DNA of 64,000 bases from Herpetosiphonaceae bacterium (lineage in GTDB: Bacteria; Chloroflexota; Chloroflexia; Chloroflexales; Kallotenuaceae). A program made the position numbers and the translations under genes. The notes below the pieces were generated by a model. That model was not told the origin of the DNA. It ran no database searches and worked only from the letters and a program-made list of their open reading frames with translations. The DNA is taken from positions 1 through 64,000 of the forward strand of contig JACDGP010000011.1 in NCBI GenBank assembly GCA_013821605.1, given 5' to 3'. Positions 36,314-36,818 of the stretch are shown one piece after another (within the stretch, counting starts at the first letter, position 1; each line of letters starts with the position of its first letter).

Positions 36314-36439
36314 CTTTATAACGTCGAGCCTAGCTTCCTCCATAGCTCTTACTAAGCTCTTTTCGAACATCCGTTTGCTTTTTATGGTAACTTGTGGTAT
36401 AATATACCCCATTCGTTGGTATCGGTTCAGCTTGCACAT
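36302..36439 (-). CDS. Small uncharacterised protein (45 aa) downstream of repeat array B
   Basis: On the minus strand an ATG at 36439 is preceded by AAGGAGAT (36446-36453), one of the best ribosome-binding sites in the window, with a 6-base gap. The 45-residue product starts MCKLNRYQRMGYI and ends in a charged helical stretch RMFEKSLVRAMEEARLDVI. It is basic and small enough to be a DNA-binding or toxin/antitoxin-type protein, but no family is recognised. The TGTACCA array B begins 24 bases upstream of the start. The stop codon lies within the tRNA terminator hairpin. A longer ORF in the same frame through the array is probably not translated. Confidence 0.45.
   Translation of the reverse strand: MCKLNRYQRMGYIIPQVTIKSKRMFEKSLVRAMEEARLDVIKTGG
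36376..36404 (+). promoter_or_regulatory. Candidate plus-strand promoter facing array B
   Basis: TTGCTT (36376-36381), a 17-base spacer and TATAAT (36399-36404) with an extended TGG before it. It would transcribe into array B toward the secreted-protein gene at 36819. It lies inside the 45-codon minus-strand gene, so either the two overlap or one is not real. Confidence 0.4.
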
Positions 36440-36462
36440 CGTCCCATCTCCTTCCAAACATG

Positions 36463-36548
36463 TGTACCAGGGAGCATCGAAAAAGTGTACCAGTACCATG
36501 TACCAAAGTTGAACGTGAATGTACCAAAACGCGTGGGGTCCTGTACCA
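36463..36548. repeat. TGTACCA repeat array B
   Basis: Five exact TGTACCA copies start at 36463, 36486, 36499, 36520 and 36542, plus AGTACCA at 36492; steps are 23, 13, 21 and 22 bases. The central part (AGTACCA-TGTACCA-AAGTTGAACGT-xAA-TGTACCA) matches array A at 2075-2109 with one base change. Continuing from the copies, both arrays also share AAACGCG followed by a G-rich stretch. The orientation relative to the flanking minus-strand gene is the same as in array A. Confidence 0.75.
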
Positions 36549-36580
36549 CTATGGAGGCCGTACCGTAACAACCATTTGCT

Positions 36581-36746
36581 ATTGCTCCCATTGCTTCCAT
36601 TGTGAAATCATTGTTTTCTATTGCTTTTTGATGAGGCAAGCAATGATGAAGCAAGCGTTGGACGTTGTTCCCCATTGCTCCCGAATCACGAAATAGCGCT
36701 TCCCAAAGCGAAAACTGGATCGTCAAGGATTTCCACTGCTAGCAAT
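36581..36746. repeat. ATTGCT short repeats beside array B
   Basis: ATTGCT occurs at 36581, 36590, 36620 and 36674, and its complement AGCAAT at 36639 and 36741, in a 166-base AT-richer stretch upstream of the gene at 36819. It could be simple low-complexity sequence or weak binding sites. Confidence 0.35.
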
Positions 36747-36818
36747 GACACGGCATAGACATTTACCCAGGGCACTGTTAGAATGCAGAAGCCTCCCAAC
36801 ATCGATCACGAGGATGCT

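Follow-up and report, generated by a model that had tools for sequence, protein, structure and literature searches.

Correia repeat enclosed elements (CREE) of Neisseria are short non-coding repeats of about 100-150 bp with terminal inverted repeats; each contains a promoter as well as a site for protein binding, and a genome has many intergenic copies of them. Several short direct repeats spaced by about two helical turns are found in the IstA sites of IS21, in the TnsB sites of Tn7 and CAST elements, and at the ends of Mu, and in iteron-type plasmid origins a promoter and an AT-rich stretch adjoin direct repeats with a period of about 21-22 bp. Here we describe a family of non-coding elements of about 300-500 bp in the genome of a Herpetosiphonaceae bacterium (5.88 Mb in 259 contigs). 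Each element is built of up to three parts, namely a promoter with a LexA-like palindrome, an optional array of the heptamer TGTA[C/A]CA with units mostly 21 bp apart, and a tail of approximately 190 bp.

Similar to CREE and other promoter-bearing MITEs, the elements are short, non-coding, intergenic and multi-copy, and they have a promoter and putative protein-binding sites. In contrast to CREE, they are longer, with a LexA-type operator and long heptamer arrays, and inverted repeats do not enclose the whole element: in the alignment of 14 array-less copies such repeats bound the tail only and not the left end. Visual inspection of four copies whose ends are well defined showed no target-site duplication. 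The arrays share with multi-site transposon ends (IS21, Tn7/CAST, Mu) the directly repeated short sites at about two turns, but they have no adjacent transposase gene, and no paired inverted end was found. IS21 ends in particular were rejected, as two good IstB loci (L038 and L039), at which the association with a transposase gene was judged, have no arrays nearby. The likeness to iteron origins (direct repeats about 21-22 bp apart, AT-rich stretch, promoter) is offset by at least 46 chromosomal copies, the lack of a match among 72,556 plasmids, and the lack of a rep gene in flanks inspected by eye (seven proteins by Pfam). A CRISPR array, with repeats of about 23-50 bp and unique spacers, was rejected since the repeat here is 7 bp and spacers recur between arrays. 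Retrons, integrons and type III toxin-antitoxin systems were set aside because the associated gene was lacking in the flanks seen.

Arrays A and B and their surroundings

The window, that is, the whole stretch of 64,000 nucleotides under analysis, contains 22 copies of TGTACCA against 5.05 expected, and none of 100 shuffles reached this number. Thirteen of the 22 copies fall into two clusters, eight in 2044-2218 (array A) and five in 36463-36548 (array B), while 200 Markov resamples of the window gave at most one copy per 90-bp stretch. The core AGTACCATGTACCAAAGTTGAACGT is identical in both arrays, and the bases that follow it differ by a single A/G change. This bears out the earlier note, which had described a second TGTACCA array that repeats a common core with one change. 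The similarity runs on upstream, through a leader and then a promoter. The GAAGGA and ATGTGCA motifs that the same note had placed on the minus strand beyond the array are actually the complement of TGCACAT...TCCTTC, located on the plus strand in the leader between promoter and array.

Copy B as a whole exceeds the span first reported, with all three parts occupying 36364-36747 on the plus strand. Its LexA-like box CGAACATCCGTTTG (36364-36377), assigned from its sequence and from the box and extended -10 statistics given below, overlaps the -35 of a predicted promoter at 36375-36403 (TTGCTT, a 17-bp spacer and the extended -10 TGGTATAAT), and transcription would start just downstream of this -10. 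The promoter was absent from the output of a consensus promoter scan. The leader with TGCACAT...TCCTTC (36404-36462), supported by the alignment of the two copies, is followed by heptamer array B (36463-36573), with TGTACCA at 36463, 36486, 36499, 36520 and 36542 and a degenerate last unit CGTAACA at about 36564-36570. The tail (36571-36747) was delimited by the tail sequence model R1 (E = 4.6e-39) and the tail alignment A1; it contains phased RTTGYT motifs and the hairpin ATTGCT/AGCAAT, ends with CACTGCTAGCAATG, and is 12 bp shorter than most tails. A tRNA-Thr gene precedes this copy.

In copy A, also on the plus strand, the predicted promoter occupies 1966-1995, with the -35 TTGCCT, the box GAACATATGTGT (1978-1989) and the extended -10 TGTTACACT. 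Array A (2044-2218) consists of eight exact TGTACCA units plus TGTATCA and TATACCA. From a by-eye comparison with the tail alignment, positions 2219-2295 (CGCCAATCGCGAAAT...CTTGCTAACAACG) appear to be a tail with an internal deletion. One neighboring gene encodes a sigma-70 region 4 protein and the other a GNAT acetyltransferase; both are on the opposite strand.

Copy number, context and distribution of the family

Altogether, at least 46 related intergenic non-coding loci, A and B included, were identified in the source genome. This number is a union of array loci and array-less tail loci counted by hand, and the true number may be higher because the tail-model search gives only the best 31 matches. 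Array A as a BLAST query gave 21 matches, and a scan of the fetched loci gave 26 arrays with at least three heptamers, again with copies A and B among them. The spaced pattern TGTANCA-N13-15-TGTANCA had 110 genome matches against 3 for the reversed control, and it revealed a second array subtype built of TGTAACA. The tail alone was found in 17 places by BLAST and in at least 31 by model R1. Thus the conserved dispersed non-coding module suggested earlier for two sites does exist, with at least 46 copies instead of two. The copies are diverged and variously truncated, with diverse flanks, as expected of an old dispersed repeat. We infer their mobility from this dispersal and truncation only, since whole-element inverted repeats, target duplications and a transposase were not seen.

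According to a rough ORF caller (not an annotation), the elements sit between unrelated genes in both orientations. They are not consistently located ahead of genes, an argument against a simple cis-regulatory role toward the neighbors. In such a role, the element would drive or tune the adjacent gene, and the array would provide repressor or activator operators. The presence of a promoter is consistent with this, as are some arrays situated a short distance before a gene on the same strand (e.g., L115, L120 and L124) and the occurrence of the same promoter type directly before ORFs in the related genome G067. However, about 9 of 25 elements, copy A included, have their downstream gene on the other strand, the downstream genes are functionally unrelated, and conserved non-coding sequence accounts for up to 400 bp of the distance between promoter and gene. 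We therefore consider local regulation improbable. Of the earlier proposal of a dispersed regulatory or mobile element, the dispersed non-coding family stands, and its members may be regulatory or mobile.

Several loci have further features in their vicinity. Two elements lie back to back at G000:C244:3677-4471, of which the minus-strand one is array-less and the plus-strand one has an array. An IS110-type transposase gene adjoins the truncated tail of L102 (L102:6139-8132), and the tail of L127 (L127:1-1660) is likewise truncated. Insertion of IS110 copies at the same tail site in these two loci was not supported, as there is no detectable similarity between them. Elements L102, L121, L122 and L100 are preceded by another dispersed repeat of hairpin-like form, made up of AGTCGGCGGAGCCGACTT and AGCCCGAACTTCAGTTCGGGC. 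An Rfam T-box leader (L101:4146-4367, minus strand) lies downstream of one element and is apparently unrelated to it.

Outside the source genome, array A had no matches in 99 relatives, none of them congeneric, and the tail model, run with stricter filters, matched nothing in the 81 other genomes examined from the order. In GTDB genomes, pattern scans turned up no array of the TGTANCA type, the plasmid set gave no match, and the tail and TGTAACA patterns were absent from viral contigs. A single viral match inside a phage ORF and a single Brevibacillus match with no promoter, core or tail were taken as chance. As these scans need an exact match or close similarity, and may exclude the source genome or very near records, we limit the claim to no copies found elsewhere. 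The earlier note had named random single sites and lack of conservation in relatives as counting against the module; the sites do form clusters in this genome, and conservation in relatives was not seen. Rfam covariance models had no match on the elements. A search for TGTACCA as a word returned no open-access paper, and a literature search on LexA motifs in Chloroflexi gave nothing direct.

This distribution also bears on a possible role in chromosome organization, in which a protein of the nucleoid or partition type would bind the arrays, or in LexA titration, for which the boxes would serve as operators. Many scattered copies, uniform heptamers and phased motifs would fit the former, and dozens of LexA-like boxes in one genome the latter, but the absence from relatives would be unusual for a chromosome-maintenance system, and this reading is the least probable of those we weighed.

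Promoter region and similarity to SOS promoters

A LexA-like box together with an extended -10 was found within about 190 bp upstream of 23 of the 26 arrays, against a background of 1.2% in stretches drawn at random from these loci; the palindrome thus lies in or beside a sigma-70 promoter, as in LexA/SOS-type promoters. Among the three remaining arrays, neither box nor extended -10 was found for L103, L115 comes after a tail bearing its own promoter, and L108 has an extended -10 with a box (AAACATTTGTGC) narrowly off the pattern. The box is located either 9 bp or 30 bp ahead of the extended -10, and with two such layouts its conservation is independent of that of the -10. The strict pattern GNAC-N4-GTGYTATAMT is limited to the layout with 9 bp and this particular -10 and is not a promoter claim for every element. 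It has 16 matches in the genome: elements account for 15, and the remaining one precedes recA. Most elements appear to carry this recA-like promoter, although it is not established for several array-less copies (e.g., L149 and L151). The lexA gene has CGAACAGGTGTTC in its own promoter region.

The elements therefore share with LexA/SOS promoters a palindrome of the GAAC-N4-GTTC type, in the layout seen at recA of the source genome, but have non-coding arrays behind the promoter and not an SOS protein gene. Across the order, the strict pattern has 0 to 16 matches per genome and almost none in the control. In G067, 14 such sites (L213-L226) are mostly located before open reading frames, including one which we take to encode RecA and one MutS, as recognized from the sequence alone. 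As the pattern is common in the order and mostly precedes ORFs in G067, the promoter type is an old SOS-like one, and the peculiarity of the source genome is its use in front of non-coding elements. The G067 site list offers a starting set for the SOS regulon in the order. LexA control of the elements themselves would follow from the match to recA.

A 74-aa protein in which Pfam recognizes a LexA DNA-binding domain (E = 8e-15) and nothing else is encoded beside an array-less element (L100, G000:C16:1012-1173, and C16:522-699 on the minus strand). Its own promoter region contains GAACATTCGTAC, and it is a candidate regulator of the element family.

Heptamer arrays, tails and their possible role

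Among approximately 200 heptamer intervals, 87 are 21 bp, followed in frequency by 13, 22-24, 20, 7 and 10-11 bp. In each of the 26 arrays, the inner units are either all TGTACCA or all TGTAACA (158 of 158 units), while none of 5000 permutations reached 158 (maximum 127); outer units frequently remain TGTACCA or TGTATCA. The spacers recur by position as TGAACGT, a G-rich stretch and GGAGGCC. On both strands, the folding of the arrays is on a par with that of shuffles (mean z about 0), and structured RNA within the array was rejected on this basis. Coding sequence was rejected as well, since the heptamer spacings (10, 13, 20-24 and 37-39) are not kept to multiples of 3 and break the frame.

The tails consist of RTTGYT motifs every 9 or 11 bp together with inverted repeats. 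In the alignment A1 of 14 tails, mean identity is 73% and the TTG triplets are invariant; within the first 80 nt, 74% of TTG intervals are steps of 9 or 11, compared with 11% in mononucleotide shuffles. Array-less tails are framed by the inverted repeat TATTGTTCCCATTGATC...GATCAATGGGAACAATA, and five of eight array-less copies have a tail of exactly 194 bp. Tail lengths otherwise vary by about one motif unit.

The uniform heptamers, the dominant two-turn spacing and the unit-wise length changes favor recognition as double-stranded DNA. Our tentative best explanation is a MITE-like family, non-coding and dispersed, that is specific to this genome and combines an SOS-type promoter with a docking array for a putative DNA-binding protein. 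Heptamers at a distance of two helical turns would be occupied by several copies of this protein, which would together form a nucleoprotein complex comparable to those on plasmid iterons or on the ends of multi-site transposons. The TGTACCA and TGTAACA subtypes would match two variants of the protein, and the SOS promoter would couple element activity to DNA damage. Against such docking, spacings of 13, 23-24 and 7 bp depart from strict helical phasing, and covariation in some tail stems would equally fit an RNA or single-strand role. Nor are the arrays linked to any transposase, recombinase or binding protein.

Given the promoter and a tail with inverted repeats, an RNA role may also be considered, and the main rival holds that the elements are LexA-controlled genes for SOS-induced non-coding RNAs with UGUACCA repeats and a partly structured tail. 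The repeats could then act as a sponge for an RNA-binding protein or for target RNAs. In intact copies the promoter is directed into the array and would transcribe the body in that direction, plus-strand tail stems beat shuffles (z of -2.1 on average and -5 to -6 in some copies), all eight array-less copies retain the basal inverted repeat, and a few stem pairs have changed on both sides. In contrast, the arrays give no folding signal, no terminator was seen at the 3' end, Rfam gave no match, and the order of array and tail is variable (L162/C84). The tail consensus energy is only -6.3 kcal/mol, with covariation at 3 of 24 predicted pairs in A1. In the main hairpin, C-A mismatches are about as frequent as G-U pairs (4 versus 5), and the basal stem and the ATTGCT/AGCAAT hairpin show some matched changes with exceptions. 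Such slight covariation is no proof of an RNA. Weighing the DNA-type evidence from the arrays against the RNA-compatible promoter and tail, we place docking first and regard an SOS-induced RNA, possible as it is, as rather unlikely, ahead of local regulation and of chromosome organization or LexA titration.

The docking explanation may be extended to a damage-induced dispersed network of docking or decoy sites, in which recA-like SOS promoters control heptamer arrays that, exposed or transcribed, recruit the two variants of the putative protein. We consider this extension doubtful; if true, it would be new to description. Dozens of non-coding loci would then stand under an apparent SOS promoter in one bacterium, binding arrays would have switched specificity as whole units, and the DNA-damage response would be linked to a dispersed repeat family. 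Even as plain repeats, the elements form a large organized family missed by gene and Rfam annotation.

In the tail of L152 (G000:C254 near 8472), the 11-bp unit CATTGTTATCG occurs four times over, indicating growth by whole units.
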